Source: Gemmataceae bacterium
Lineage (GTDB): Bacteria; Planctomycetota; Planctomycetia; Gemmatales; Gemmataceae
Direction: 5' to 3'
DNA length: 34,050 nt
NCBI GenBank assembly: GCA_019747655.1
Contig: JAIEQO010000736.1
Coordinates: 1-34,050 of the forward strand
Positions 1-23,248 of the stretch are shown in pieces. Every line of letters begins with the position of its first letter. Positions within the stretch are counted from its first letter, which is position 1. The notes under the pieces were generated by a model. It did no database searches and had not been told where the DNA came from. It was given only the letters and a program-made list of their open reading frames with translations. The translations under genes were made by a program, and so were the position numbers.

Positions 1-890
1 ACCGCCACCTCCAGGGCCCGCAGGTCCGGCGGGGCGGCGTTCAACAGCGGCTGGGCCGTCGACAGCGTCAGGTTCACGTTCCCCCAGTCCTCCCCGGTCT
101 GTTGCTCGACGGCCGCCAGGTACTCCAGCGTCACCGGGTCCTTGTCCTTCGCCCCGGCCCGGAGCTTGTACACCGGCCGCCACCCGGCGCGCGACACCAG
201 GTAGCTCAGCCGGACCACCCCCGGCCCGGCCTTCTTGTCCACCAGCACGACCGCGTCCCGCTCGGTCCGGACCGACCCGCCGGCCCGCTCCCCGAGCAGC
301 CGCTTGGTGAACTCGGCCTGCTCCCCGAGGGCCTCGATCTGCTGCTTGATCTCCAGGGCGCCCTTCGCCCGCTTGGCCCGGTCGTCCTGGACGAACTTGG
401 CCAGGGTGATGATCTTCTCCGGGTCGAGCTGGCCCTTGTCCGTGACCGTCTCCAGCGACTTGGCGGTGAACCCTTCGAGCTTGTCCAGGAGCTTCAGGTT
501 CTCCTCGGCCGCCTTCAGGTCGGCCTGGAGCCCCTGGGTCTTCTGGGTCAGCGTCTTGAGCTGGGCGTCGAGCTTGCGGACCTCCTCCCGGGTGTCCTCG
601 GCGATCTGCCGGGTCCGGAACCGGACGCTCAGCACCCGCCCGGCGTCCCCGCCCTCGGCGTACAGCGAGGTCGGGATCACCTGCGGCGGCATCGGCGAGA
701 CCACCACCTCCGCCACCCCGGCCGCGTCCGGCAGCGTCACCTCCCGGGTGACGAGGGCGGTCGACTGGTACAGGGTGACGGCCGTGATCCGGCTCGCGGC
801 CGGCTTGACCGGGTCGGCCTTCGGGTCCTGGCCGCGGGCCGTTAACCCCAGGCCGGCGGTCAGGATGGCGAGGGCGAGGAAGCGGCTCAT
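1..890 (-). CDS. DUF4139 / mucoidy-inhibitor MuiA-like protein, C-terminus beyond window edge
   Basis: Open minus frame from ATG at 890 to the window edge, not in the ORF track because it has no stop: MSRFLALAILTAGLGLTARGQDPKADPVKPAASRITAVTLYQSTALVTREVTLPDAAG...VRLSYLVSRAGWRPVYKLRAGAKDKDPVTLEYLAAVEQQTGEDWGNVNLTLSTAQP. Signal peptide, ITAVTLYQSTALVTREV start, coiled coil and 'Y.V..AGWRP.Y.LRA' block are typical of DUF4139 proteins. Confidence 0.8.
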   Translation of the reverse strand, partial: MSRFLALAILTAGLGLTARGQDPKADPVKPAASRITAVTLYQSTALVTREVTLPDAAGVAEVVVSPMPPQVIPTSLYAEGGDAGRVLSVRFRTRQIAEDTREEVRKLDAQLKTLTQKTQGLQADLKAAEENLKLLDKLEGFTAKSLETVTDKGQLDPEKIITLAKFVQDDRAKRAKGALEIKQQIEALGEQAEFTKRLLGERAGGSVRTERDAVVLVDKKAGPGVVRLSYLVSRAGWRPVYKLRAGAKDKDPVTLEYLAAVEQQTGEDWGNVNLTLSTAQPLLNAAPPDLRALEVA

Positions 891-1088
891 GGTACACCGG
901 GGGAGTCGGTAATCGGGGGGACCCCTCCCCCCTTCGTTTTTCCCAGTTGCCGTAAACCGTTGCGGATTTTTCACATGGGTGCGATCGGCCGGCTGCCACC
1001 CGGCAACGGACTCTGACGCAACCCGTTGCCCTGTCTGCCCTTTTACACGGTCCGCTCCGTTGCCGGACCCGGTCACGGTCCTGACCGA

Positions 1089-1130
1089 TTCGCTGGCCCC
1101 GGACCCAACCCCGGGTCCGGGGCCAGCGAA
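1089..1130. terminator. Perfect 18-bp inverted repeat (TTCGCTGGCCCCGGACCC / GGGTCCGGGGCCAGCGAA), 6-nt loop
   Basis: Read directly; lies 57 bp past the stop of the minus-strand VWA gene. No U-tract, so terminator function is inferred. Confidence 0.5.
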
Positions 1131-1186
1131 CCACTCCAGTATACTATACTTTTGTGCAATAACAAGCCGGGTGGGGAAAATGCCCC

Positions 1187-2347
1187 CTACTTCCCGGCCT
1201 CGAACCCCCGGGCCTTGGCCTGCTCCCGGACGACGCCCCGGACGGCCTCGTCCAGCGCCTTCTCGGCGTCCGACTTCGGCTGCTTGGCCCGCTCGGCGTC
1301 GACCACCTTCTGCCGCTTGGCCGACAGCTCGGCCACCTGCTTCTGGATGTCCGCCCGCTCGTCGGCCTTCTTCTTGACGTAGGCCAGCCGCTCCTCCGGC
1401 TTCAGCTTCTTCAGCTCGTCCGGCAGCTCGTCCTCGGGGACCTTCGCCAGGTCGAAGTCCTTGTCCTCCTTCATCCGGTCCACGAGGTCCCACTCGCTGT
1501 TGCGGTACAGGGCCCCGGCCTTCGACGCGGCCCGGCCGAGGGCGGCGGTCGGGGCGGCGGCCCCGGCCGGGGCGGCGGCCAGGGCGTTCCGGTCCTGGGC
1601 CGCCTGGTTGGCGAACTTGTCCGCCCCGAGCTTGCCGTACCGGACGTAGGTGCCGTTCAGCTTGGCGTCGAGCTTCAGGATTTCCGCGTCGAACTCGGTC
1701 TTCACCGCGACCTCGGCGGCCGCCCGGTTCTGGTCGATGGAGAGCCCCTTCCCGCCGCACTGGGCCGCGAACCCCATCCACCCCGGGGCGATCCCGTCGG
1801 CCGCCGAGCCGCAGTAGATGGTGTTGACCACCACCCCGGCCTTCTTCGCCCGGGCGGCCGCGTCGGCCAGCGACACCTCCTTGTCCTGGTCGGCGGCCTC
1901 GTTGCCGCAGACGAAGATGACCTTCAGGGCCCCGTCGGCGGCCGACCACTTCTGCTCGGCCAGGGCCGCGGCCGTCACCCGGGCGACCAGCTCGGTCCCG
2001 CCGTTGGTCCGCAGCCCGTTGAGGGCCTTGTACACCTCGTCCAGGTCGGCCGTCAGGTCGACCTCCTTGCGGACCCAGCCGCTCTGCGGGGTGTAGGTGT
2101 CGTGCCCGTAGCTGTAGAGGGCGACCCGGAGGTCCGGGGTCGGCTTGAGCCGGGCCAACTCGTTGACGATGTCCCAGAGCTTGAGCTTGGCCGAGTCGAT
2201 CAGCCCGTTCATGCTGCCGGACACGTCCAGGCAGAGGACGAGGTCGATCGGCTTGGCGGCGACGGCGGGCTTGTCGGCGGCCCGGGCCGGGGCGGCGACG
2301 GCGGCCGCGACGACGGCGGCGGCGGCGAGACGTGAGGCGACGGACAT
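1187..2347 (-). CDS. Secreted von Willebrand factor type A domain protein
   Basis: ORF 1187..2482; likely start MSVASRLAAAAVVAAAVAAPARA (signal peptide) at 2347. MIDAS motif DVSGSMNG, TNGGTE, VIFVCGNEAADQ; charged coiled C-terminus. Confidence 0.8.
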   Translation of the reverse strand: MSVASRLAAAAVVAAAVAAPARAADKPAVAAKPIDLVLCLDVSGSMNGLIDSAKLKLWDIVNELARLKPTPDLRVALYSYGHDTYTPQSGWVRKEVDLTADLDEVYKALNGLRTNGGTELVARVTAAALAEQKWSAADGALKVIFVCGNEAADQDKEVSLADAAARAKKAGVVVNTIYCGSAADGIAPGWMGFAAQCGGKGLSIDQNRAAAEVAVKTEFDAEILKLDAKLNGTYVRYGKLGADKFANQAAQDRNALAAAPAGAAAPTAALGRAASKAGALYRNSEWDLVDRMKEDKDFDLAKVPEDELPDELKKLKPEERLAYVKKKADERADIQKQVAELSAKRQKVVDAERAKQPKSDAEKALDEAVRGVVREQAKARGFEAGK

Positions 2348-2922
2348 GCGGCCTCCTCCTGGGGCGGGCCGGGCCGGGGCGCTTCCTCCCCGGCCCGACC
2401 TCACCGGCGATTGTAACCGCCGGGCTGTAACGGAGGGGTAACGAAGGGGTTGGGACGAAGAGGGGGTGCGGTAGCGCCCCACCCGGGACGGCGGGTGCGG
2501 GACGAGTCGCCCAACAACTCCCCTCGACGGCGAAAGTGACAGCGGAGCAGCCGGGTAGGCGTCACTTTGGCGTATACACCAAAGTAGCCGCCCCGAGAGG
2601 CCCCGATTCGAGCGGCCGTCAGGCGGCTAACGACCCAGCTCAGCAGCGACAGCGGCCGAGTGAGTTACGAACTTCAGAAACCCTACCTGGCACCCTCGTC
2701 TGCTGCAACGGCTAGTTTGTGGAAGCGTGTTGCAGCGAAAACAGCCGGCTCGATCATTCTATCGGGTCAGCACTTGCGGCAAATCTCTGTCCTCTGAAAT
2801 CGCCTGCCCTCCCGGTCGTGGAGGGCAGATGGAGGGCAATCGAGGGGTTGCGTTGGAGTTACGTCGGTGGGGGCGGACGCACCCTTCGGCGATACTTCAG
2901 GCGTCCTTTCGGAGTCCTCGTC

Positions 2923-4155
2923 ATGGCCTGGCTCGAACAGCACCGGACCTCTGGACATTATCATCTCTGCTTCCGTTTTGGAGGCAAGAAGTATCGTCGC
3001 ACCCTCGACACCAGCGACACGAAGTCGGCCGAGGCGACCCGACTTCGCTTCGAGGAAAACCTCGTCCTGCTCGAACGCGGCCGCTTCGAGCTTCCGCCGG
3101 ATGCCGACCTCATCACCTTTCTGCTCTCCGACGGCAAGTTAGCGGCACCGCCGGTCGTCGCCCCGTCGCCGCTCCTCGGCGATGTCTTCGACCGCTACCT
3201 CGCCACCTGCGGGAACGGATCGATGGAAGCGAACTCGCTGGAGATGCTGGTTCTCCACTTGAAGCAAATCCGCCGCAAGCTCGGCGACTCGTTCAAGCTC
3301 CAGCAGCTTTCGACCTCGCACTTGCAGGAATACGTCAACACGCGCGTCCGTGTCAAAGGCAACAAGTCGATTCCGCTCAGTACCGTGTCGCTGCAAAAGG
3401 AAATGGCGGCGTTCCGGGCCTGCTTCAACTGGGCCGTGCAGACGGGCATCCTGGAGGGCACGTTCCCGAACAAGGGACTGCGGTATCCCAAGGGCGAGGA
3501 CAAGCGGCCGTTCACGACCTGGGAGGACATCGAACGCCGAATCGGTCGCGGTGGCCTCGCGGCGGGCGAAATCAAGAAGTGGTGGGACTGCCTTTTCCTC
3601 GATCTCGGTCAGGTGGCCGAGTTCGTCGCGTTCATGGCAACGCACGGCTCAAAGCGGTGGATGCACCCGATGATTGCGACGGCGGCCCACACCGGGGCAC
3701 GGCGTAGCGAACTCGTCCGGCTCCACGTCGATGACGTGGACTTCCAGGGCAAGACCATTCTGATCCACGAACGCAAGCGTGTGAAGGGGCAACGCACGAC
3801 CCGGCGGGTTCCGCTCACGCCGTTCCTGGAGTCGGTACTCAAGAACTGGCTCGCCAAAGATCACACCGGAGGGCAGAACTTGTTCTTCGATCACGAAGAC
3901 GGCAAGGCGGTGCCGGTCACGGTGGACGATGCCGGCTGGCAGTTCGTGCTTTCGGTTCGCGGCTCGAAGTGGTGTGTGCTGCGAGGCTGGCACGTCCTGC
4001 GGCACTCCTTTGTCTCGAATCTCGCCGCCAAAGGTGTTGACCAGCGATTCATCGACGAGTTTGTGGGGCATAGCACGGAGGCTCAACGACGCCGCTACCG
4101 CCACCTGTTCCCGCACCAGCAGCGGCAGGTACTGTGCAACGTGTTCGGCCCCTGA
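2923..4155 (+). CDS. Site-specific tyrosine recombinase / integrase
   Basis: ORF 2719..4155; protein-like sequence starts at MAWLEQHRTSGHYHLCFRFGGKKYRRTLDTSDTKSAEA (2923). Catalytic-type motifs TAAHTGARRSELVRLHVDDVD, HVLRHSFVSNL, GHSTEAQRRRYRHL. Confidence 0.9.
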   Translation: MAWLEQHRTSGHYHLCFRFGGKKYRRTLDTSDTKSAEATRLRFEENLVLLERGRFELPPDADLITFLLSDGKLAAPPVVAPSPLLGDVFDRYLATCGNGSMEANSLEMLVLHLKQIRRKLGDSFKLQQLSTSHLQEYVNTRVRVKGNKSIPLSTVSLQKEMAAFRACFNWAVQTGILEGTFPNKGLRYPKGEDKRPFTTWEDIERRIGRGGLAAGEIKKWWDCLFLDLGQVAEFVAFMATHGSKRWMHPMIATAAHTGARRSELVRLHVDDVDFQGKTILIHERKRVKGQRTTRRVPLTPFLESVLKNWLAKDHTGGQNLFFDHEDGKAVPVTVDDAGWQFVLSVRGSKWCVLRGWHVLRHSFVSNLAAKGVDQRFIDEFVGHSTEAQRRRYRHLFPHQQRQVLCNVFGP

Positions 4156-4297
4156 CTGCGAAAGGCATCCACTACACCGTCCTGTCTCGAAAGACGGCGG
4201 GACGGCGTTCGGCCTTGAATCGAAGCTTGTCAGCAACGCCCCAGCCATGCCATGATAACCCAACCCTTCGATTCGATGATGAGAAAATGACACCGGT

Positions 4298-4933
4298 ATG
4301 ACATCACCACGAGACCCCAAACGGAAACTTGTCCCGCGAGGCAAGGCGAACGCCCAACGGCCGGACGACTTCGATGAAGTCCTCCGGCTGATCGACGCCG
4401 CGCGTGTTCGCGCCGTCGCCGCCGTTAACACGACTCTGATCGAACTTTACTGGCAGATCGGGGAGTACATCAGCCACAAGATCGCATCGGCCTCTTGGGG
4501 CGAGGGCGTTGTCGAGCAGCTCGCGGCCCACATTGCCCAGAAGCACCCCGGCTTGCAAGGCTTCACTCGCCGCAACCTGTTCAGAATGCGGCAGTTTTAC
4601 GAGACCTACCGGGCCGACGAGAAAGTGTCACCGCTGGTGACACAATTGCCCTGGACCCACCATTTGCTCATCCTCAGCAAATCGAAACGCTCGGAAGAAC
4701 GCGAATTCTACCTGCGTATGGCCACCTCACAGAAGTGGTCGAAACGTGAACTGGAACGGCAACTGAACGGGGCGCTTTTCGAGCAGGTCGTTCTCTCGCC
4801 GACAAAAGTGTCACCGCCGGTGACACTTTTGCACCCCGATGCGTCGAGCATCTTCAAGGACAGCTACTTCTGGGTGACGCCTTTCGCCATCTCGCGTCTG
4901 ATCTCGGCGCGGGGCCGGGTGAGCCAGTCGTAG
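4298..4933 (+). pseudogene. DUF1016/YhcG-type (PDDEXK-like) protein, 3' end lost
   Basis: N-terminal half typical of DUF1016: TTLIELYWQIGEYISHKI, GFTRRNLFRMRQFYETY, QLPWTHHLLILSKSKRSEEREFYLRMA, KVSPPVTLLHPDASSIFKDSY. Homology-like sequence stops at FKDSY (~4868), where the transposase fragment begins on the other strand. Confidence 0.8.
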
Positions 4934-5748
4934 TGATTCCACCTCCGCTTCTTCAGCCGCGGCTCGTAACGGTCAGGGCGGTCCGCAACACGGTGGGTGG
5001 CGATGGCGGCGAGCAGATCCCGGTACAGGCGTGTGCGTTCGGTGGTGCCGGCCGCGCGAAACTCAAGTAGCGGCCGAAAGGCCGCCAGGGTTTGCAGGGC
5101 ACCCGTGAAGCTGATCGACCGCGGCACCGCGTCGTGTGTGGCCGCGGCCTGGGCCATCACGGTGCGGATCAGGTTGTACGCCAACACGTCCACCCACACT
5201 TCCTTGCGCGCCTGCTCCGGCGCCTTGCATCGCAACTCGCTCATCCCGATCGCACACTTGATCGACCGCAGGTCGAGTTCGTTGTTCCACCGCGCCCGGT
5301 ACAGCGCCGCCAGATCCTCCTTGGTCACCTGTCGCGGGTCCAGAAGCGTCGTCACCACCACGACCGACTTGGTCCGGAAGCCGGGTTGCGTGACCCGCAC
5401 CCGTGCCTCCCGGACCGTGATCGCCTCCGGCAGCGACCCGTACGTCTCCCGGTCCAGCGAGCGGATCGATGTCGGCTTGGCCCAGCGGACGATGTGGTCG
5501 TCGGGACCGAGGCGCTGCCCGCGTCTGAAGTCCGCCGAGCGGTGCGCCTTGTTCAGCCGGCTGACGAGATCGACGCCGCGCGCCTGGAGCATCTGGATGC
5601 TTGCCCAGTTGGCCGTCAGGCTGTCGGCCAGGATGACGTCGCCGGTGGCGAGCACGTCCCAAACTGGCGGAGCAGGCTGCATCACGCCGTCGAACAGAAA
5701 GTAGACACGCATCCCCCCTTCGCCGCGCCGAGATGCGTGTCGAACCAC
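4864..5748 (-). pseudogene. IS4-type (DDE) transposase C-terminal fragment
   Basis: LATGDVILADSLTANWASIQMLQARGVDLVSRLNKAHRSADFRRGQRLGPDDHIVRW, RVRVTQPGFRTKSVVVVTTLLDPRQVTKEDLAALYRARWNNELDLRSIKCAIGMSELRCKAPEQARKEVWVDVLAYNLIR (YREK-like region). No N-terminal part; recognisable sequence begins near 5710. Confidence 0.8.
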
Positions 5749-6357
5749 TCGACAAACGCCGGTACCACGGTCAGGTTGTGTTTCGCCGTAAACGTGTGTT
5801 CCCCGCCCTCGATCACCAGCAGCTTGCTCTTCACCTTCGCCTTCTCCAGCGCCGCCAGCATGGTATTGCTGTGTTCGATGGTAACGAGTTCGTCCTTGTT
5901 ACCGTGGATGAGCAGCGTCGGCGGGGTTTTGGCAGTCGCGTGCAATACCGGGCTGTAGTCGCCGGCGAGCTTCGGATCGAACGTCAGCGGCTTCATCAGG
6001 GCTGTGCTCGCCTTGACCAACGGCGGTGGGTCACTCACCCACTTGCGGATGTCGGTCGGTGGACAGATCGCAACGGCGACGGCGATGCGGCTGCTCTGGC
6101 GAAGAACCTCGTCCTTCGCCTTCGGGTCGCCGTCGTCCCTGGTCGGACCAGACGGAATACCACCCGCCACTCTGGATGAGCAGCACGCCCGCCCCATTCG
6201 GTTTGGGCGGCGTGAACACGTCGAACGCCAGGGCCATGCCGTCCTTGCAGCCGTAACTACGTCGTGCCGAATCTTCACTCCGACGTCGGCCAAGACGCAC
6301 GGGGCCGAAGTGGAAATCACTGTGTGGATCAATAGTCTCATAGTCATTCGACATCAT
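5712..6357 (-). pseudogene. Alpha/beta hydrolase pseudogene (frameshifted, core deleted)
   Basis: 5' part in frame of ORF 6031..6357 (DSARRSYGCKDGMALAFDVFTPPKPNGAGVLLIQSGGWYSVW), 3' part in frame of ORF 5682..6347 (DDGDPKAKDEVLRQSSRIAVAVAICPPTDIRKWV...TPPTLLIHGNKDELVTIEHSNTMLAALEKAKVKSKLLVIEGGEHTF...FVEWFDTHLGAAK). The central GGSAGG nucleophile region is absent. Confidence 0.75.
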
Positions 6358-6878
6358 TGTGTGTCTTTACCAGGATGGAGCGCATCAGGTGATCCAAGTA
6401 GGTCGGAGAGGAACCCTCGGAACTCCACAATCGTATCCGTGCACCGCAAGTCGGGTCGGAGCAACTCTCGAAGCATAAGACGGTGGGCCCACGGGAGCGA
6501 CTGGGTGTCCGGTACCGGGACGAAGAGGATTGTGAATAATCGCCCGATGCGCTCCCTTAGTGGGGCATCGCCCAGCGCGTCTTGAACGGTCACTCGGAAT
6601 CGCGATGCCGCGACTGCGACCGCCTCTCGAAACAGCGACTCTTTGCCCCGGAAGTGGTAACTCACAGCGGCGATGTTCGTCCCGCCCCGGGCCGCAATTT
6701 CCCGTACAGTGGTCCCGTGAAACCCCTTCTCGGCAAACTCCTCACCACCCGCCTCCAGTAGTCGTTCCCGAGTCCGAACCCCATCCCCACGCCGGGAAGC
6801 GTCCAGACCGACTGGAATCAGCTCGCGCGCTCGCCCCACGGTACTTCCTCGCAGCCAAGTCGTATTGACCCCAACCAA
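6354..6878 (-). CDS. TetR/AcrR-family regulator (CerR-like), C-terminus possibly truncated
   Basis: N-terminal HTH RTRERLLEAGGEEFAEKGFHGTTVREIAARGGTNIAAVSYHFRGKESLFREAV. The track start uses TTG. Shorter than typical for this type. Confidence 0.8.
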   Translation of the reverse strand: MVGVNTTWLRGSTVGRARELIPVGLDASRRGDGVRTRERLLEAGGEEFAEKGFHGTTVREIAARGGTNIAAVSYHFRGKESLFREAVAVAASRFRVTVQDALGDAPLRERIGRLFTILFVPVPDTQSLPWAHRLMLRELLRPDLRCTDTIVEFRGFLSDLLGSPDALHPGKDTQ

Positions 6879-6893
6879 GGTCGTCGCTAATTA

Positions 6894-6920
6894 TTTTACT
6901 GTCCAGTAGGTTAACTAAAA
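6894..6920. promoter_or_regulatory. Candidate TetR operator, copy 1 (TTTTACTGTCCAGTAGGTTAACTAAAA)
   Basis: Core TACT-GTCC-AGTA inverted repeat 16 bp upstream of TetR 1; 21/27 identical to 9534..9560. Confidence 0.5.
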
Positions 6921-7210
6921 GGTGAGTGATCGAGGGGGCGGCCGTCACTTCGTCATGGGCCGGATGTGCCGGACCGGCATGTGCTGGACCCTCGATCGAG
7001 GGATCTCAGGCCATGCTCAACGTCCGGGCCGTCCGCCAAGCCGGCCTCGCCGACCAGTTCCACCCCCACCACGCGACCAGTGAAGCGAGAAAAATCCACC
7101 AATACAACGACCTGCTCAAAAACTACCAACCGTTTGATTTTTGCGGATGACGGGATACATTCATACAGATCTCGCTACCGCAGGGCGCAATACCTATCCC
7201 AGTTCGCAAA

Positions 7211-8857
7211 TTATTTATTGCCTTTTGCTGGAGAAGGCACAGTAGGCATGGGTGCCTTTCCAGTGTCCGGCACCACTGGCTGGTCTTGTCCCATTTTCTT
7301 GATGCTTAACGGGACTTGACCGGGTGGAGTGATAGGCGAAACGGGTCGAGCAAGTCGAATCTCCCAGCCGCCCCCCAAGGCGCGATATAGATCGACCAAG
7401 CTTTGTGCCGAAGCACCACGGGCGACCGCCAATCTTTCCTCTTGGCCTAGCAACAACTGCTGCACAACAAACAACCGATTGAAGTCGGTCTCTCCCGCGC
7501 GATACTTGACCTGGGCGACACGCTCCGCTTCACGAGCATCACGAACACTCGTCTCCAGCAGTTTGACTTGATCGAGCAGGTGCAGGTAGGCAACTATGGC
7601 GTTCTCTGCTTCTTCGTTGGCCTTCAGCACCGTTTGCTGATAATTGGCAATGACTTGCTGAAATACGGCGTTTTCGGCTTTGATATTGTTGAGCAGCCGC
7701 CCATAGTTGAGCACTTCCCAGCGGAACGACGGGCCGATCGTTCCTCCGAAAGCACTACTCTTGAACACGTCGCTGAACTTGCCGGCCTCCCATCCCAGGG
7801 AGCCCAGAACGGAGATATGGGGGTATAATGCGGACGTTGCGACACCGATCTCCGCACTCTGAGCCGCGACGATCCGCTCGGCTCGACGAACATCCGGCCG
7901 TCGCCAGATCAACTCCGCCGGAATACCAACGGTCACTGTTCCCGGGGCTTTGGGAATCGGAGCAGGGCTGTTGATGATGTCCGAAAGGTCGTGCGGCGGC
8001 ATACCCATGAGTACGGAGAGGCGGTTCTGCGCCTCTCTCCGTCGAATTTCAATCCGTTCGATGTCGGCGAGTGTGCTGCCGAGATTCGCCTTGGCCTGAG
8101 GATAGTCCAGTTCGCTGCCCTCGCCTTTCGCATCGAATCGTGCCTTTGCCACACGGGTACTTTCGGTCTGCAACTCCGCATTCTTCTTGGCGACTGCGAG
8201 TCGTTCTTCTTCCGTCCGCAATTCGATGTATGCCGTCGCGACCTGGCCGATGAGCATCACTAGCACTTCGTCGTAGCCGAACACGGAGCTGTCGAGTTGT
8301 GCGTCCGCCGCCTCGACAGAGCGCCGGAATCTCCCCCAAAAATCGAGTTCCCACGCCAGGCTGCTGCCAATCCGCCAGTTGTTAAACCGTGTCGAGGCCA
8401 GATTCGCGAAAGGCGACGACGAATCGACATTAGGGAAAAGCGCGACTTCAGTACTACGCTGAGTTCGAACAAAATCAAGACTCACGTCTTGCACTTGCGG
8501 GAAGAGTTGACCGACCGCGACTCCTCGACGAGCCTGGGCCTCAGCTACTCGAAATCCGGCCTCCCTGAGACTAATGTTCTGCTCATACGCTGTTTGGATG
8601 AGTCGGTTCAAAACGGGATCGTTGAAGACACTCCACCAGTCTTTTAAGTCCGGGGCCTGTTTGGAAAAGCGCTCGCTTCGCGAGTCGATCCACTCATCTG
8701 CCACAGGTACTGCCGGCGGCTGATAGTTTGGCCCCACCTTGAATCCGTTGTGGATGTATTCCCGTACGCCCGTGCATCCGACGAGGCAGAAGCTGGAGAA
8801 CACCACCAGAATCCGCAGCAGACCGAGCCGTTGAATCAACTTACGCATTACGCTCAT
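7211..8857 (-). CDS. Outer-membrane efflux lipoprotein, NodT/TolC family
   Basis: Lipobox LVGC after MSVMRKLIQRLGLLRILVVFSSF; VGPNYQPPAVPVADEW, GSSLAWELDFWGRFRRSVEAADAQL, IPAELIWRRPDVRRAERIVAAQSAEIGVATSALYP. Confidence 0.9.
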   Translation of the reverse strand: MSVMRKLIQRLGLLRILVVFSSFCLVGCTGVREYIHNGFKVGPNYQPPAVPVADEWIDSRSERFSKQAPDLKDWWSVFNDPVLNRLIQTAYEQNISLREAGFRVAEAQARRGVAVGQLFPQVQDVSLDFVRTQRSTEVALFPNVDSSSPFANLASTRFNNWRIGSSLAWELDFWGRFRRSVEAADAQLDSSVFGYDEVLVMLIGQVATAYIELRTEEERLAVAKKNAELQTESTRVAKARFDAKGEGSELDYPQAKANLGSTLADIERIEIRRREAQNRLSVLMGMPPHDLSDIINSPAPIPKAPGTVTVGIPAELIWRRPDVRRAERIVAAQSAEIGVATSALYPHISVLGSLGWEAGKFSDVFKSSAFGGTIGPSFRWEVLNYGRLLNNIKAENAVFQQVIANYQQTVLKANEEAENAIVAYLHLLDQVKLLETSVRDAREAERVAQVKYRAGETDFNRLFVVQQLLLGQEERLAVARGASAQSLVDLYRALGGGWEIRLARPVSPITPPGQVPLSIKKMGQDQPVVPDTGKAPMPTVPSPAKGNK

Positions 8858-9505
8858 CCTTGCCGAACAGGTTCGGACGACAGCCGCGACCGGATACTTC
8901 ACGCTAATCGCGAAATCGCGAGCGCATGCCGGGTCTGTCAGATCTTGTTTCCGCTCGTTGGAGTTAAACTCAGTGCGTGCGGAATGCGTTTCTGGTATCG
9001 GCGGAAATACCGGCAGACTTGATACAAAGCATCCTCTCGGCGAAATCCATATTCGGCCATTGATGTGACGTTCAGGGATTCTGTTCCGCTGTTACGCCTC
9101 ACGAGTGAAGTCTGGGCTGTCCGAGGTTTTCCGGCCAGTTATTTGCCGTGGCCCGCTCGGCTGATGGATGACAGTGTCGTGCAACTCGGCCAACGCCAGC
9201 GGGGCAGCGCCGGACCGAATAAGGCATGCGCCTTCCTTCAGGGCCACCTCGGCCACCTCCCTGCCGTCATACTGTTCGGTTTTGGATCGCCGGTGATTAA
9301 ATACGGGGGTACGCCGAGAGGCAGGACATCGCCCGGACTTCGGATAAGCTCGTCCCCCCGAGCGTGCAAGGACTCATGGTGCCAGGTCGTGGGAGGGGCA
9401 AGATCGCCCCGGCTCCACAAGCCTCCCAGAATTCACAAGATCACACCCGTAATGGTTTTGCGCGTTGGCCATCAACCAGCGTATCGACCACACGGCCGAG
9501 TCGTC

Positions 9506-9534
9506 TTGACATCGCCCCCGGTAATCCCTATTTC
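9506..9534 (+). promoter_or_regulatory. Sigma70-like promoter TTGACA-17-TATTTC
   Basis: TTGACA 9506-9511, 17-nt spacer, TATTTC 9529-9534, directly abutting operator copy 2 and ~40 bp before the TetR 2 start. Confidence 0.45.
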
Positions 9535-9560
9535 TTTACTGACGAGTAAGTCAAATAAAA
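9534..9560. promoter_or_regulatory. Candidate TetR operator, copy 2 (CTTTACTGACGAGTAAGTCAAATAAAA)
   Basis: TTACT-GACG-AGTAA inverted repeat; matches 6894..6920 at 21/27 positions. Confidence 0.5.
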
Positions 9561-9574
9561 AATGGGAAGTTCCC

Positions 9575-10225
9575 GTGACGAAATCGACTACCCGCCCTCC
9601 GGGTCGACCGAAAGACCCCGAGCGGACCCGTCAGCGGAAGGACGACATCCTAGCCACGTCGGCAATCATCTTCGCGCGCCAAGGGTACGCCGCCACCGAC
9701 CTGGACGAGATCGCCAAGGCGATCGGGGTGAGCAAGGCGACGCTCTACTACTACTACGAGAGCAAAGAGCAATTGTTTCTGGCTGCCGTCGATCTCGGGA
9801 TGCGGAAGCTCCAAGAAGTCGTTCGCGACATGAGCGATCAGATTGAAGAGCCGCTCGACCGGATCAAAGCGGCGGTACACGCCTATCTCCGGTTCTTTCA
9901 CGAACACCCGCAGTTCGTTGAGCTGATCATCCAGGAACGGGCCGTGTTCCGTGATCGCAAGACTTCCACGTACTTCGAGCACCGGGATGCCAGTGCCCAG
10001 CGGTGGCGGGATCTGCTCGCCGGACTGGTCCGAGTTGGCCGGGTCCGCGACCTACCGGTCGATCGACTGCTCGACGTGCTCAGCGACCAGGTCTATGGGG
10101 CAATGTTTACCGCCCACTTCACGGGGGGCCGGAAGACGCCAGAAGAGCAGTCAGCCGACATCATCGACATCGTCCTCGGGGGAATGCTTACCCCGGCCGA
10201 GCGGAGGAAAACCAATGTCAGTTGA
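9575..10225 (+). CDS. TetR/AcrR-family transcriptional regulator
   Basis: GTG start at 9575 (VTKSTTRPPGRPKDPERTRQRKDDILATSAIIFARQGYAATDLDEIAKAIGVSKATLYYYYESKEQLFLAAV). Overlaps the next gene by 11 bp. Confidence 0.9.
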   Translation: MTKSTTRPPGRPKDPERTRQRKDDILATSAIIFARQGYAATDLDEIAKAIGVSKATLYYYYESKEQLFLAAVDLGMRKLQEVVRDMSDQIEEPLDRIKAAVHAYLRFFHEHPQFVELIIQERAVFRDRKTSTYFEHRDASAQRWRDLLAGLVRVGRVRDLPVDRLLDVLSDQVYGAMFTAHFTGGRKTPEEQSADIIDIVLGGMLTPAERRKTNVS

Positions 10226-11642
10226 ACAACTCGTGACCGCCCCCGCCACGCCAACCGCACCGGTTCACCCACCGCCCCCGAAACCTCCCGGGGGCGAGTT
10301 ACGGAAGTGGGTGATCCGGCTCGTGATCCTTGCCGCCGTGGTGGGGGTGGTGGGCGTCGCGACCGGCGTTATCCCCGGCCGCCCGAAGGGGAACACCCAG
10401 GCCGACCTGGCAGCCGGGGCGAAGGACCAACCGAAGCAACGGGAGGCAAAGCCGGTCCCCGTCACGGTCCAGCCGGCCACAGCCCGTCCGGTCCAGCGGA
10501 AGGTTCAGGTCGTCGGCACGATGATCGGCCGGGAGGAGATCACCGTCACGGCGAAGGCCGACGGCCGAATCGTCCGGATCTATTCCGACCTGGGCGACGA
10601 CGTGAAGCCCGGCGACGTGCTTCTGGAGATCGACGACACCGATTACAAGCTCGCCGTTGCCGAAGTGCAACAGGCGCTTGAACTCGAACTGTCCAAGCTC
10701 GGCCTGAGGGAGTTGCCGGCAAGCACTTTTGACGTGAGCCTCCTTCCGGCGGTTGTCAAAACAACGGCGTTGGAACGCAGTGCCGCATCCCGGTTTGAAC
10801 GGGCCAAGAAACTTCTGTCGGAAAAGTCGACTTCAGAAGAGGCGTACAATCTGGCCGAGGCCGACTACAAGGTCGCGGTGGCGAACTTTCAACAAGCGGT
10901 CCTCGACGCCCGGTCCACCCTCGTGGCCATCGGTCAGAAGAAAGCCCAGCTGGACACCGCCCGCCAGCGGTTGGCCGACACGAAGGTGGTCGTGCCGGTC
11001 ATTTCCGCGCAGCCGATCCCCGTCGTCGGCCCAGGCGGCAAGCCGATCGTACTTCCGGCGGTGAGTCGGTTCTCGGTGTCCCGGCGGATGGTGTCCGAGG
11101 GGGAAATGCTCAGAGTCTCCCCGACAACATCCATGTCGATCTTCAAGCTGGTAGTGGACGACTACCTGAAGCTCGGGGCGACCGTCCCGGAGCGGCATTT
11201 GGAAGACATCAAGATCGGCCAGGAAGTGGACATCGAGGTCGAGTCCCACCGCGGGCGGGTGTTCAAGGGGCTGGTCGTCCGGATGAACCCGACCGTCGAC
11301 CCGGCGAACCGGACCTTCCAGATCGTGATCGGGGTGGCCAACCCGGATCGCAAACTCCGGGCCGGGAGCTTCGCCAAGGCCGCCGTCTCGACGCGCATTG
11401 ACCCGACGGCGGTCACCGTTCCGGAGGAGGCCGTCGTGTCGTTCGCCGGGGTGACCAAGGTGTTCGTCGCGGACGGCGGCAAGGCCCGCGAAGTCCCCGT
11501 CACGCCCGGGGTCCGGGTCGAGGTCGGGGCCGACGGCTGGGTCGAGGTGACCGGGGATCTGAAGCCCGGGGCGGCCGTGGTGACGAGCGGCCAGTCGCAG
11601 TTGTCCGAGGGGAAGCCGGTCCGGGTGCGGGACGGGAAGTAA
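10215..11642 (+). CDS. RND efflux periplasmic adaptor (HlyD/AcrA-type membrane fusion protein)
   Basis: Single N-terminal TM, QPATARPVQRKVQVVGTMIGREEITVTAKADGRIVRIYSDLGDDVKPGDVLLEIDDTDY, beta-barrel V.RMNPTVDPANRTFQIVIGVANPDRKLRAGSFAKAAV. Confidence 0.9.
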   Translation: MSVEQLVTAPATPTAPVHPPPPKPPGGELRKWVIRLVILAAVVGVVGVATGVIPGRPKGNTQADLAAGAKDQPKQREAKPVPVTVQPATARPVQRKVQVVGTMIGREEITVTAKADGRIVRIYSDLGDDVKPGDVLLEIDDTDYKLAVAEVQQALELELSKLGLRELPASTFDVSLLPAVVKTTALERSAASRFERAKKLLSEKSTSEEAYNLAEADYKVAVANFQQAVLDARSTLVAIGQKKAQLDTARQRLADTKVVVPVISAQPIPVVGPGGKPIVLPAVSRFSVSRRMVSEGEMLRVSPTTSMSIFKLVVDDYLKLGATVPERHLEDIKIGQEVDIEVESHRGRVFKGLVVRMNPTVDPANRTFQIVIGVANPDRKLRAGSFAKAAVSTRIDPTAVTVPEEAVVSFAGVTKVFVADGGKAREVPVTPGVRVEVGADGWVEVTGDLKPGAAVVTSGQSQLSEGKPVRVRDGK

Positions 11643-11688
11643 CGGCGGCACGGCGAGCGAGCCACATTACACGACGCGGGGGTCAGGG

Positions 11689-14600
11689 ATGAGCCTGTAC
11701 GAGATTTGCATCCGCCGGCCGGTGTTCACGGTCATGCTCATGGCCGCGCCGGTCGTCCTCGGGGTCGCGTCCTACGCACGGCTCGGGGTGGACCTGTTCC
11801 CGAACGTCGATCTCCCGGTGGTCGTCGTCACCACCACCCTCCGCGGAGCCAGTGCCGAGGAGATGGAGACGACCGTCACCAAGCCGGTCGAGGAGATCGT
11901 CAACACCGTCTCCGGGATCGACGAACTGCGGAGCACGACGAAGGAGGGGTACTCGCAGGTCACCATCCAGTTCAAACTGGAGAAGAGCGGGGCGGTCGCC
12001 GCACAGGAGGTGGACGCCAAGATCCGTACCATACTGAGCCAACTCCCGGTCGGGACCGACCCGCCGGTCATCGACCGGTTCGACCTGGATGCGGCTCCCG
12101 TGCTGACGATCGCCGTGTCCGGCCGGCGCGACTTCCGGGAGGTGACCGAGATCGCCCGGAAGCGGATCAAGGAGGACCTGGAAACACTGCCCGGTGTCGG
12201 ATCGGTGACCCTGGTCGGGGGCCGGCAGCGGGCGGTGAACGTGTTCATCGACCCGGACAAGCTGCTCAAGTACGAGAACCTGACGGTCGAGGACGTGCGA
12301 CTGGCGCTCCTCCGGGAGAACCAGGAACAACCGGGCGGGCGGGTCGATCAGGGCCGCGGGGAGGTGGTCCTCCGGACTCTCGGGCGGGTGGAGAAACCGG
12401 CCGACTTCGAGAAACTGATCGTCGGCAACCGGGTCGGCCAGCCGGTCCGGATCGAGGACATCGGTCGTGTCGCGGACTCGTTTGAGGAGCCGCGGGGGAC
12501 GAGCCGGCTGTGGGTCCGCCAGAAGGCGGCCGCCGGGGAGATGTCCGACGCCGGGGACAACGCGGTCAGCCTGATCGTCCAGAAGCAGTCGGGCGAGAAC
12601 ACGGTCAAGGTGGTGGACCGTGTCCTCAAGCGGCTGGACGAGATCCAGCCCACACTCCCGGACGACATCCAGGTCGAGGTCATCCGCGACCAGTCGCGGT
12701 TCATCCGCAAGTCGATCGACGAGGTGAAAATGCACCTCCTCCTCGCCGCCGGGCTGGTCATCCTGACGATCCTGGTGTTCATGCAGGACTGGCGGACCAC
12801 GCTCATCGCCGCCCTGGCCATCCCGACCTCGATCGTCGGCACCTTCGCGTTCATGGACGCGATGGGCTTCACCCTGAACAACATCACCATCCTCGGGCTG
12901 ATCCTGGCGATCGGGATCGTCATCGACGACGCGGTGGTGGTGAACGAGAACATCTACCGGCTGATGGAGGAGAAGGGGTATCCGCCCGGGCGAGCGGCGG
13001 TCGAGGGGACGCGGGAGATCGCGCTGCCGGTCATCGCGACAACCCTGTCCCTGCTGGTCATCTTCATCCCGGTCGCGTTCATGGGCGGGCGGGTCGGCCG
13101 GTTCTTCTCCAGCTTCGGGTTCGTGGTCGCCTTCTCCCTGTTCCTGAGCATGGTGGTGAGCTTCACCCTGACCCCGATGCTCTGCGCCAAGATGCTCAAG
13201 TCCAAGCCGGGGCACGGGCAGGCCGGGCACGGGAGCAAGAGCGGGTGGGTGTGGCGGCTGGTCGAGGGGTCGTACATGCTGGTCCTCCGGTGGGCCATGC
13301 GGCACCGGTGGATCGTCGTTGCGGTCGCCGTCGGCGTCCTCCTCACCACCCCCGTCATCGCCGGCAAGGTCGGCAAGGACTTCGTGCCCCGGGACGACCA
13401 GAGCGAGTTCGAGGTGTCCGTCACCCTGCCCGAGGGGTACTCGCTCCAGAGGGCCGAGGAAGTCTTGGGGCAGATCGACCAGCGCCTCCGCGGCCTCCGC
13501 GGGGTGACCCACACCTACCTGGTGATCGGGGACACCAGCGGGCGGGTGACCAAGGGCCAGGGGGACGTGACCAAGGGGACCATCTACGTCCGCATCACCG
13601 ACCTGGAGAAGCGGAAGTTCATCCCGTCCGTCCGGGGCGTGGACCCGGACGGGGCTCTCGGGCACGTCCTGAAGGAGGTCGGGTCCGGACGCCAGGAGTT
13701 CACCCAGTTCGAGGTGATGGACGACGCCCGGGCGATCCTGGCCGACTACCCGGACCTGCGGGCGGCCGTCCAGGACGTGTCGGCGTTCCAGGGCACCGGG
13801 TTCCGGCAGGTGGAGATCGACTTCAACCTGAGCGGCCCGGACATGGACAAGTTGGAGAAGTACTCGGACGAGATCTCGGCGTGGATGACCGCCCAGGGGT
13901 ATTTTGTCGATATCGACACCAGTCTGTCGCTCCGCAAGCCGGAACTCCGCATCCGCCCGGACCGGGAGCGGCTCTCCGACCTGGGGGTGTCGCTCGACGC
14001 CGTCTCGACCACAACCAACGTCATGGTCGGCGGGCTGCCGGTGACGAAGTACAAGGAGGCGGGTGAGCAGTACGACGTGTGGCTCCGGGCCGACCGCCAG
14101 TACCGGGACGACGCGGACACGATCGCCCGGCTGACGGTCCCCTCGACGAAGGCCGCCAACGGCGTGGTCCGGGTCGGGAGCGTGGCCCGGATCGAGAAGG
14201 CTCTGGGGCCGAACTCGATCGACCGGTTCGGCCGCCAGCGGCAGGTGGTCGTCTCGGCCAACCTGCAAGGGAAGTCGCTCGGGGAGGCGGTCGAGGCCCT
14301 GTCGGCCCACGTCAAGGAGATGAACCTGCCGCCCGAGTACCGGTGGGAGTTCATCGGCCGGGCCAAGACGATGAACGAGTCGAACGCCAACTTCCTGATC
14401 GCGTTCGTCCTCGCCTTCGTCTTCATGTACATGATCCTGGCCGGCCAGTTCGAGAGCTACATCCAGCCGATCACCATCCTGGCGGCGCTGCCGCTGACCA
14501 TCCCGTTCGCCCTGCTGTCCCTCTGGCTCCTCCAGACGAACCTGGACATCTACGCCATGTTCGGGCTGTTCATGCTGTTCGGGATTGTGAAGAAGAACGG

Positions 14601-15027
14601 CATCTTGCAGGTGGACTACACGAACGTGCTGCGGGGCCGAGGGGTGCCGCGGGAGGAGGCGATCCTGGAGGCGAACGCCACCCGGCTGCGGCCGATCATG
14701 ATGACCACGCTGATGCTCCTTGCCGCGATGGTGCCGATGGCCCTCGGCCAAGGTCCGGGGGCGTCCACCCGGTCGGGGATGGCGAAGCTCATCCTCGGCG
14801 GGCAGGCTCTCTCACTCCTCCTGACCCTGCTCGTTACCCCGGTCGCGTACTCGTTGTGGGACGACTTCGCCCTCTTCGCCGGGCGGGTGTGGCGGCGGCT
14901 GTTCCCCCGCCAGGAGAGCCGCACTTCCGACCCCGTCGAAATCGAGACAGGAGACGGTATTGATTCGCCTCCGCTCGTTGCCGCTTCCACCGACGGGGGT
15001 GCCGGACATGGTCGAGAACACCGCTAA
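11689..15027 (+). CDS. HAE1-type RND efflux transporter (AcrB/MexB-like)
   Basis: 1112 aa; MSLYEICIRRPVFTVMLMAAPVVLGVASYARLGVDLFPNVDLPVVVVTT, TM4 proton-relay motif GIVIDDAVVVNENIYR, GRFFSSFGFVVAFSLFLSMVVSFTLTPMLCAKML. Confidence 0.95.
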   Translation: MSLYEICIRRPVFTVMLMAAPVVLGVASYARLGVDLFPNVDLPVVVVTTTLRGASAEEMETTVTKPVEEIVNTVSGIDELRSTTKEGYSQVTIQFKLEKSGAVAAQEVDAKIRTILSQLPVGTDPPVIDRFDLDAAPVLTIAVSGRRDFREVTEIARKRIKEDLETLPGVGSVTLVGGRQRAVNVFIDPDKLLKYENLTVEDVRLALLRENQEQPGGRVDQGRGEVVLRTLGRVEKPADFEKLIVGNRVGQPVRIEDIGRVADSFEEPRGTSRLWVRQKAAAGEMSDAGDNAVSLIVQKQSGENTVKVVDRVLKRLDEIQPTLPDDIQVEVIRDQSRFIRKSIDEVKMHLLLAAGLVILTILVFMQDWRTTLIAALAIPTSIVGTFAFMDAMGFTLNNITILGLILAIGIVIDDAVVVNENIYRLMEEKGYPPGRAAVEGTREIALPVIATTLSLLVIFIPVAFMGGRVGRFFSSFGFVVAFSLFLSMVVSFTLTPMLCAKMLKSKPGHGQAGHGSKSGWVWRLVEGSYMLVLRWAMRHRWIVVAVAVGVLLTTPVIAGKVGKDFVPRDDQSEFEVSVTLPEGYSLQRAEEVLGQIDQRLRGLRGVTHTYLVIGDTSGRVTKGQGDVTKGTIYVRITDLEKRKFIPSVRGVDPDGALGHVLKEVGSGRQEFTQFEVMDDARAILADYPDLRAAVQDVSAFQGTGFRQVEIDFNLSGPDMDKLEKYSDEISAWMTAQGYFVDIDTSLSLRKPELRIRPDRERLSDLGVSLDAVSTTTNVMVGGLPVTKYKEAGEQYDVWLRADRQYRDDADTIARLTVPSTKAANGVVRVGSVARIEKALGPNSIDRFGRQRQVVVSANLQGKSLGEAVEALSAHVKEMNLPPEYRWEFIGRAKTMNESNANFLIAFVLAFVFMYMILAGQFESYIQPITILAALPLTIPFALLSLWLLQTNLDIYAMFGLFMLFGIVKKNGILQVDYTNVLRGRGVPREEAILEANATRLRPIMMTTLMLLAAMVPMALGQGPGASTRSGMAKLILGGQALSLLLTLLVTPVAYSLWDDFALFAGRVWRRLFPRQESRTSDPVEIETGDGIDSPPLVAASTDGGAGHGREHR

Positions 15028-15166
15028 CGTCCTCAAGGGATGGCCCCGGCGGCGCTCGGCACCCGCCCCCGGAACGATCCAGGAGGAGTTCGACCGAGCC
15101 GTTCGGGAGGAGGCCCTGCTCTGGGGCGAACCTCTCGATGAGCCTCTGGGCGGGAAGGAGCCTGCC

Positions 15167-16348
15167 GTGCGACTGCAAGTGCTGATCGGGGTCGTGGCGC
15201 TCGCGACCGGGTGTGTTGCCGGGCGGTCGTACCCGCCCCCAGACCTGCCCGCCAACGCCCACCTGATCCCCGCCGATACGCCCGCCGCACCGCCGGTTCG
15301 TCCGGCGCGGTCGGCGCTCGTTCTGTCCGGCGGGGGCGCTCACGGCGCGTTCACCGCCGGTGTCCTGAAAGGCTGGTCGGAGTCCGGCACCCGGCCGCAG
15401 TTCGACGTGGTGACCGGGGTCAGCACCGGGGCGCTGATTGCACCGCTCGCCTTCCTCGGCCCGGAGTACGACGGGGAGTTGGAGACCTTCTACACGACCA
15501 CCCGGGACCGGGACGTGTTCCGCCGCCGGCCGCTTCCCGCCGTCCTCTGGACGGACTCCCTGGCCGACCCGACGCCGCTCCGGGCGCGGATCAAGGCGGT
15601 GGCGACCCCGGAACTCCTCGACCGGGTGGCCGCCGAACACCGGAAGGGGCGGCGGCTTTACGTCGGGACGACCGACCTGGACACGAAGAGCCAGGTCATC
15701 TGGGATCTCGGCGCGGTTGCGGCGGGGGCCGACCCCGGCCGCCGCGAGTTGTTCTGCGACGTGATCCTGGCGTCCTGCTCGGTCCCGGCGGTGTTTCCGC
15801 CGGTGGCCATCGACGTGGAGGTGGACGGATGCCGGCACACGGAGTTGCACGTGGACGGTGGGGTGAGCCGGTCGGCCTTTCTGCCCCCAGCAGCCCTCGG
15901 GGTGGGGCCGGCCGGGGAGGTCGATCCGTCCGCCCCACGGGCCGACGTGTACGTCATCCTGGCCGGCAACCTCGCCCCCCGTCACGGCCCGGTCGAGCGG
16001 CGGCTGGTGCGGGTGTCCGGGGAGGCGCTAGCCGGGGTGCTGCACGCCCGCGAAGAGGGGGACCTGCTGCGGCTGTACCTGCTGGCCCGGCACGCCGGGG
16101 CCGGGTTCCACCTCGCGGCGGTCCCCGCCGACCTCAAAGCGGACGGTCTTGCCCTGGGGTTCGACCCGCAGGCGATGGGGCGGCTGTTCGAGGCCGGGTC
16201 CGAGGCCGGGCGCACCGGCCGGTGGCGGGTTCTACCCCCCGGCCTCGGGCCGGGGGAGCGGCCGGTGCCCCGGGAGGGGACGCGGTTGAAGACCGTGGTC
16301 CGCGTCCCGGCCGGCGGGAAAGACGCTTCCGGCCCGCAGGGGGATTGA
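15167..16348 (+). CDS. Patatin-like phospholipase, predicted lipoprotein
   Basis: GTG start at 15167 with GGAAGGAG just upstream gives MRLQVLIGVVALATGC (lipobox). LVLSGGGAHGAFTAGVLKG, GVSTGALIAPLAFLG (Ser motif), DGGVSRSAF (DGG). An upstream in-frame start at 15008 is possible. Confidence 0.85.
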   Translation: MRLQVLIGVVALATGCVAGRSYPPPDLPANAHLIPADTPAAPPVRPARSALVLSGGGAHGAFTAGVLKGWSESGTRPQFDVVTGVSTGALIAPLAFLGPEYDGELETFYTTTRDRDVFRRRPLPAVLWTDSLADPTPLRARIKAVATPELLDRVAAEHRKGRRLYVGTTDLDTKSQVIWDLGAVAAGADPGRRELFCDVILASCSVPAVFPPVAIDVEVDGCRHTELHVDGGVSRSAFLPPAALGVGPAGEVDPSAPRADVYVILAGNLAPRHGPVERRLVRVSGEALAGVLHAREEGDLLRLYLLARHAGAGFHLAAVPADLKADGLALGFDPQAMGRLFEAGSEAGRTGRWRVLPPGLGPGERPVPREGTRLKTVVRVPAGGKDASGPQGD

Positions 16349-16382
16349 CTCCCCGTCGAGGAATTCGCCAGAGGACGCAGCA

Positions 16383-16733
16383 ATGGACGAGCAACCAAGT
16401 GTCGGTAGAAAGGCCGTGCGCTCGATGCGACGGGTCGTCCGCTATTGCGGGACGGAGCCGCTGCCGCTCCGGGTCGCGGTTGCGGTGGCAATCGCCGCCC
16501 GCCACGTCGGTGGTAGTGTGGCCGTCGGATACCGAGACCGGTGGTGTGACGGGCAGGACCCCTCCGAACTCTTCCTGCTCGGGGTTGACGCGGGGAGCGA
16601 TCTGACCCTTGAAGCCACGGGCGCCCGGGCCGGAGAGTTGCTCGATGAAATCCAGCGGGTCCTGGAGCACTCCGCCACCCCGGCCACTTCCCGTGAAAGT
16701 GATCTAGACTCCACCGGCCCTGATCCGGGCTGA
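16383..16733 (+). CDS. HPr-like fold protein lacking the catalytic His (degenerate PTS phosphocarrier homologue)
   Basis: MRRVVRYCGTEPLPLRVAVAVAIAARHVGGSVAVGYRDRWCDGQDPSELFLLGVDAGSDLTLEATGARAGELLDEIQRVLE aligns by eye along the whole HPr domain; the GLHxRPA motif is replaced by PLPLRVA. Confidence 0.55.
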   Translation: MDEQPSVGRKAVRSMRRVVRYCGTEPLPLRVAVAVAIAARHVGGSVAVGYRDRWCDGQDPSELFLLGVDAGSDLTLEATGARAGELLDEIQRVLEHSATPATSRESDLDSTGPDPG

Positions 16734-16802
16734 GCGCCAGACCTGGGTCCGCGGTGTTCTCGCCCGGTACCTCAGACGGTTCAGTACCCCAGGAGCACCG
16801 GA

Positions 16803-17681
16803 ATGAGTCTCGCCCGCGTGGCGGTCTCGGCCTGTCTGAACGGACTCGCGACGTTCTCCCCGACCTGTGCGGGCCGGTTCGCATACACCCTCTTCTGTCG
16901 GCCCCCGCGCACCAACCCAGGCCGCGGACCGGCGGCCCGACTTCCCGGTGCCGCCCGGGGTGTTCTCGGCGCGGCGGAAGTGATGTCCGTCCCGCACCCC
17001 GGGGGCCTGTTGCGAGCCTATCACTGGGGCCCCCCCGAGGCCCGGCGGCGGGTTCTGCTCGTCCACGGATGGGGCGGCCGGGCGTCGCACATGGTCGCGT
17101 TCGCCCGTACGTTGGCCGCATCGGGGCTCGGCGTCGTGGCCTACGACGCACCAGCCCACGGCGACTCGACGGGGCGGCGGGCCGACCTGCCGGGCGGGGC
17201 AGAAGCGTTGCGTGCGGTGAGTGACGTGTTGGGGCCGTTCGAGGCCGCCATCACCCACTCGTTCGGCGGGATGGTGGCGGCGCTCGCCGCCGAGGGCGGG
17301 CCGCCGTTGACCGGGAGGGTCGGGTTCGGCTCCCTCGTTCTTGTATCGCCACCGGCCCGCCTGGGCGACCTGATGCGGTGGTTCGGGTCGGGGGCCGGGT
17401 TGTCGGCGCGGACGATCCGGGGGATGCGGGAGTACGTTGCCAAGCGGGCGGGGAGGGCGGTGGCCGAGTTCGACACCGGGGCGCTGCTCCGGGGTAACGT
17501 CCGCCGGCTGCTCGTGATCCACGACGAGGACGATCCGGAGGTCCCGTTCGCGGACGGCAAGGCGGTGGCGGGGTCGGCGGGCGGCGAGTTGGTGGCGACC
17601 CGCCGCCTCGGCCACCGGCGGGTGCTGGTGGCCCCCGAGGTGGCACGGGCTGCGGCCGAGTTCGTGCTTGCCTCGCGGTGA
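16803..17681 (+). CDS. Alpha/beta hydrolase
   Basis: RVLLVHGWGGRASHMVAFARTLAASGLGVVAYDAPAHGDSTGRRADLPGGAEALRAV...THSFGGMVAAL...LVIHDEDDPEVPF...LGHRRVL. Confidence 0.85.
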   Translation: MSLARVAVSACLNGLATFSPTCAGRFAYTLFCRPPRTNPGRGPAARLPGAARGVLGAAEVMSVPHPGGLLRAYHWGPPEARRRVLLVHGWGGRASHMVAFARTLAASGLGVVAYDAPAHGDSTGRRADLPGGAEALRAVSDVLGPFEAAITHSFGGMVAALAAEGGPPLTGRVGFGSLVLVSPPARLGDLMRWFGSGAGLSARTIRGMREYVAKRAGRAVAEFDTGALLRGNVRRLLVIHDEDDPEVPFADGKAVAGSAGGELVATRRLGHRRVLVAPEVARAAAEFVLASR

Positions 17682-22938: not shown

Positions 22939-23248
22939 GGGTCGCAGACGGGCCGTTCTCGCTGCCCAGCCAAACTCGCCCCATCCGGCCGGTAACGCGC
23001 CTGGAACCGAACTGGCTTCCCGGACCGGATGCCGAATGGACCGGTCCGTTCGGGCCTTGTTGTCAAGCCGGCCGAAGACCGTGGTGACCGACGCTCCGGT
23101 TACCGGCGGCCGCTCGTCGTCGTCAGCCGAGAACCTCGTTGAGCAGCACGGGCAAGACCTCGGCGTATGGCGGTGGCTCGGCAACAAGTCCCGGATCAGC
23201 GTGTTCGACGGCACCGCCAACAGATACCTGAGTGGTGACACTGCGGAG

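Follow-up and report, generated by a model that had tools for sequence, protein, structure and literature searches.

Two similar 27-mers lie on either side of a TolC-type gene (tolC) in the 34,050-nucleotide stretch of Gemmataceae bacterium DNA analysed here (the window; contig C1107 of a 7.33-Mb MAG in 1113 contigs), and each adjoins a gene for a TetR-type regulator, TetR1 on the minus strand and TetR2 on the plus strand. This arrangement raises the question whether one protein reads both sites, and which of the surrounding genes it would govern. An earlier note, made from the sequence alone, had seen in them a shared operator and had proposed cross-regulation or a common regulon covering tolC, an RND pump and TetR1. 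The 27-mers, called site 1 and site 2 here (Table 1), do lie where that note placed them, they are identical at 21 of 27 positions and both contain the inverted repeat TTACT-N4-AGTA(A). The reading that we regard as probable is a narrower one, in which site 2 would be the autoregulatory operator of TetR2, site 1 an orphaned promoter-operator cassette of the TetR2 type, and TetR1 merely its left-hand neighbour.

Table 1 Features of the locus in window coordinates
Feature	Position	Strand	Basis
TetR1 gene	6354..6839 (GTG) or 6354..6878 (TTG)	-	Pfam TetR_N only
Site 1 promoter-like element: TTGACC 6865-6870, N17, TAATTA 6888-6893 (or N18, AATTAT)	6865..6894	+	Promoter scan
Site 1, TetR2-type dyad 6894-6915, centre 6904.5	6894..6920	+	Dyad model from site 2 only
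Synteny breakpoint	6926		blastn against sister contig G019:C154
NodT/TolC-type outer-membrane factor (tolC)	7211..8848	-	Pfam OEP; NCBIfam outer_NodT above cutoff
tetR2 operon promoter: TTGACA 9506-9511, N17, TATTTC 9529-9534	9506..9534	+	Best promoter at fixed place before operator
Site 2, candidate tetR2 operator, 22-bp dyad 9534-9555	9534..9560	+	Relatives-only motif, 12.7 bits
TetR2 repressor gene, GTG start, 216 aa	9575..10225	+	Pfam TetR_N 8e-16 (above Pfam cutoff), TetR_C_24 6.6e-8
RND periplasmic adaptor (MFP)	10215..11642	+	Pfam HlyD_D23, NCBIfam RND_mfp
RND transporter	11689..15027	+	Pfam ACR_tran 1e-257

The tetR2 gene is divergent from tolC, with 726 bp between their starts. Since the end of tetR2 and the start of the MFP gene overlap by 11 bp (10215-10225), tetR2 heads the pump operon, in which the RND gene begins 46 bp past the MFP gene.

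Taken by itself, a 21/27 match is cheap, since the window contains about 135 27-mer diagonals at this level. This number, together with the weak score of site 1 under the motif of the TetR2 relatives (see below), would fit a chance likeness between promoter regions that are both AT-rich within a GC-rich genome. We nevertheless hold chance to be very unlikely, because 21/27 was reached in the TetR1 promoter region by one of 3000 dinucleotide shuffles, the background maximum was 19/27 across 1.06 million positions, mostly from related genomes, and dyad register and promoter geometry are common to both sites. The site 1/site 2 pair is also the only AT-rich one among the diagonals at 21/27.

The genome-wide scan suggested in the earlier note was carried out with patterns rather than with the relatives' motif matrix, and at up to three mismatches the shared pattern was found in the 7.33-Mb genome at sites 1 and 2 only. 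Zero mismatches at both sites is no evidence in itself, because the pattern was defined from those two sites, unlike the absence of further matches in the genome, which is evidence. Among the 102 genomes of the order that were scanned, the 16-bp core was absent from the 101 others, and the strict motif was not found outside the source genome in either family or order. A wider regulon received no backing, as no sites occurred above the control rate (the 13-bp core, searched at up to one mismatch, gave eight matches, compared with six for a reversed-pattern control).

The significance of site 2 becomes apparent from the relatives of TetR2, which we gathered from 94 other genomes of the source genome's family, using the upstream DNA of 46 of them, with the window itself and its 95% identical sister excluded. 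An obvious dyad lies upstream in most of the 46, and the palindromic motif that EM yields from these relatives alone is ACGGACGGAC-TA-GTCCGTCCGT-like, that is, a 22-bp dyad of the ACGGACGGAC-NN-GTCCGTCCGT type; in 42 of the 46 the best dyad scores at least 16.7 bits and occupies the place equivalent to site 2. With this motif, site 2 ranks second among approximately 34,000 window positions. The palindrome described earlier is present in both sites, with the better-supported dyad centres (9544.5 and 6904.5) lying 2 bp to its right. In most of the relatives a TTGACA-N16-18-TAnnnT-like promoter stands closely upstream of the dyad, and the same layout is found here, where the tetR2 promoter directly precedes site 2. 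This promoter is conserved, with TATTTT, in the nearest sister contig (JAIOPV010000138.1, labelled Planctomycetota). The sister's site 2 differs at four of 27 bp and its flanks are about 97% identical, so the constraint on the site is not strict and its exact sequence is not frozen. TetR2 therewith combines a TetR_N domain, an operon shared with the pump and a conserved dyad at the promoter of its own gene. On the strength of the relatives' dyad, the rank in the window, the promoter layout and the match between helix and bases considered next, we regard site 2 as very probably the operator through which TetR2 controls its own operon, tetR2-MFP-RND, and to this extent the earlier proposal of an operator for the pump holds.

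The bases in which site 2 is unusual accompany an unusual residue in the recognition helix of TetR2, tyrosine in place of arginine. Nearly all relatives have the helix Y-R-Y/H-F and a few Y-L-Y-F, whereas TetR2 and its sister have Y-Y-Y-Y. Base 6 of the half-site is G in 59 of 76 half-sites of the Arg type, T in seven of eight of the Leu type, and T in all four of the Tyr type (TetR2 and sister). Since the sequences are few and related to one another, the link between helix residue and base 6 is a lead and not proof.

Turning to site 1, a dyad model built from site 2 alone gives it 17.6 bits, the second rank in the window. At this score or above, the background held three of 530,186 positions, which are two distinct places, one of them counted twice, and both are operators of TetR2-type paralogs (in genomes G019 and G027). 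Under the relatives' motif, site 1 reaches no more than 2.9 bits, the twelfth rank among about 34,000 positions, chiefly owing to one core change, the replacement of the near-invariant A by T. The promoter-like element before it is one of three sigma-70-like promoters in 6300-10300, where shuffles average 1.4, and promoter and dyad are arranged as in the TetR2 relatives and in the same orientation as site 2. Because this element lies on the plus strand, the cassette faces rightward, with TetR1 behind it and the 3' end of tolC ahead. After site 1 we found no gene of the kind seen in TetR2-type operons, and the plus-strand ORF located there (6966-7319) has no domain. The observation that a shared site stands beside each TetR gene is sound, but the sites have the same orientation and the two genes opposite ones. 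Site 1 is likely a second cassette of the TetR2 type whose downstream gene is gone, and action of TetR2 upon it is plausible from the dyad scoring. That both sites could be read by one protein keeps its footing for TetR2 and loses it for TetR1.

Site 1 might still matter for the gene to its left, in that TetR2 bound there would repress the leftward TetR1-hydrolase unit, its dyad overlapping or blocking the TetR1 promoter. The dyad at site 1 is a good one of the TetR2 type. It lies 55 bp ahead of the GTG at 6839, the likelier TetR1 start; for the TTG at 6878 the distance is 16 bp. As the divergent genes on which TetR proteins act usually lie less than 200 bp away (PMC3511530), such a position can matter. 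We consider this one-way cross-regulation unlikely, though, since the strand toward TetR1 has no recognisable promoter (score 6, compared with 9.5 on the other strand), TetR1 is short, the frame of the hydrolase gene in the same unit is broken, and the sister genome has TetR2 without TetR1. Site 1 as the TetR1 promoter itself was rejected, as the promoter-like element points the other way.

The opposite assignment, TetR1 as the repressor at site 1 in a classical divergent arrangement whose target has been lost, would make the likeness to site 2 a convergence on a common operator style. The layout is the classical one, with site 1 between TetR1 and a divergent promoter. Relatives of TetR1 share about 32-44% identity with it along most of the protein, and as much as 60% when only the DNA-binding domain is compared; a closer one was sought in 398 genomes of the class, the best reaching 42%. 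TetR1 itself, with the recognition helix NIAAVSYHF, has 138 residues when counting begins with the DNA-binding domain, compared with 195-235 in full relatives, and has therefore probably lost part of its C-terminal domain. The operator of this helix subfamily, ATCAAACAATTGTTTGAT (TCAAACA-NN-TGTTTGA), scores at least 16 bits in 26 of 29 relatives and is absent before TetR1, whose promoter region reaches -3.6 bits at best. On account of this different operator we rejected TetR1 as owner of site 1 and do not see support for its action at either site; mutual cross-regulation is not supported. Convergence would moreover have to produce 21/27 and the same promoter spacing, so we judge this assignment decidedly improbable.

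TetR1 shares its N-terminal domain and the recognition helix N-I-A-A-V-x-Y with CecR/YbiH-like (DUF1956) regulators, and its nearest solved structure, 7e1l, is a DUF1956 (CecR-like) protein. It differs from CecR in being short, in scoring 36.9 bits against an NCBIfam CecR cutoff of 365, and in lacking the relatives' operator. The CecR-like TetR genes of the family (L066-L094) share the TCAAACA-NN-TGTTTGA operator clearly, and in many cases a further dyad of similar form seems to come shortly after it. The window's best match to the motif of the TetR1 relatives, AACAAACAACCGATTGAA at 7466-7483 (17.5 bits), lies inside the tolC coding region and is probably due to chance.

The origin of the orphaned cassette may be found directly beside it. 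By blastn, window positions 6926-17681 match the sister contig at 93.6% over 10.8 kb and positions 1-6925 do not, so that the match ends 6 bp right of site 1. The left part carries a tyrosine integrase (2719-4152), a DUF1016 protein, a DDE transposase and the frameshifted alpha/beta-hydrolase gene; judged by integrase, DUF1016 protein and transposase, it looks like a mobile, decaying island. A tRNA that could serve as its attachment site was not present in the window. Such a sharp stop of synteny in an assembly of 1113 contigs would also be expected if the MAG had joined unrelated pieces at 6926, in which case site 1 and TetR1 would belong elsewhere. The assembly contains the flanking DNA of the junction, left and right, in one copy each, however, so no repeat explains a false join and a repeat-driven misassembly is disfavoured; the hydrolase, in addition, has distant relatives among genomes of the same family. 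We rate an artefact as highly improbable. Just left of the breakpoint, the sister contig (L095, 6828-6877) is similar to the beginning of an RND adaptor gene, with 80% identity over 50 bp to window positions 10291-10340. This adaptor-like DNA hints that a second pump operon may once have stood at the breakpoint.

For tolC, the proposed control through these sites found no support. Site 1 lies beyond the 3' end of the gene and was rejected as a tolC operator on its orientation and position, while site 2 is 686 bp from the tolC start. A divergent neighbour at a distance above 200 bp is usually not under the control of a TetR-type regulator (PMC3511530), with known exceptions, and in view of this rule and the positions of both sites, tolC is probably not controlled via either. 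An operator of the TetR2 relatives' class was not found in the tolC promoter region. From the suggested regulon of tolC, RND pump and TetR1 there consequently remains the pump, through site 2, but neither tolC nor a TetR1 promoter at site 1. The window's best match to the TetR2 relatives' motif (16.9 bits) is found far from the locus, at 23032-23053, where CCGAATGGACCGGTCCGTTCGG forms a nearly perfect dyad of 22 bp, about 95 bp past the end of an ABC-2 transporter gene and without an obvious promoter; it may represent either a terminator hairpin or a further TetR site. It is also conceivable, albeit with very low probability, that TetR2 controls two promoters, at site 2 that of the pump and at site 1 that of a rightward transcript antisense to the 3' end of tolC. 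If this were true, pump induction would also adjust the outer-membrane partner tolC via convergent transcription.

From the conservation of operator and promoter in relatives, the orientation, the register and the breakpoint, all read from the sequence, we infer binding, repression, a ligand and the loss of a former gene in the following manner. A TetR2 dimer would bind the dyad TTTACTGAC-GA-GTAAGTCAA, which follows immediately on the -10 element of the tetR2 promoter, and, once bound, would block transcription of tetR2-MFP-RND until a ligand, probably a pump substrate, releases it. At site 1, the rearrangement ending at 6926 would have taken away the natural downstream gene, leaving an orphan to which TetR2 may still bind; bound there, it would have no more than a short rightward transcript to control and might hinder TetR1. 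TetR1, short and of another subfamily, would not be expected to bind either site.

AcrR, MtrR, TtgR and SmeT are TetR-family local repressors of RND pumps. Like them, TetR2 has a TetR_N domain, its gene stands together with the MFP-RND genes, here in one operon and otherwise beside them, and its candidate dyad operator overlaps the transcription start region. Unlike them, TetR2 falls below every NCBIfam equivalog cutoff and its operator is of the ACGGAC-NN-GTCCGT class, as in the TetR2 relatives. In the literature we found no description of this motif and nothing relevant on planctomycete TetR/RND operators.

Together, the locus appears to hold a real, ordinary operator and, likely, its orphan twin. 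The analysis separates the sound operator from its orphaned look-alike and provides a concrete candidate operator for a planctomycete family of pump repressors for which we found no site described in the literature. The suggested link between one helix residue (Arg, Leu or Tyr) and one half-site base (G or T) would aid the prediction of TetR targets from sequence.
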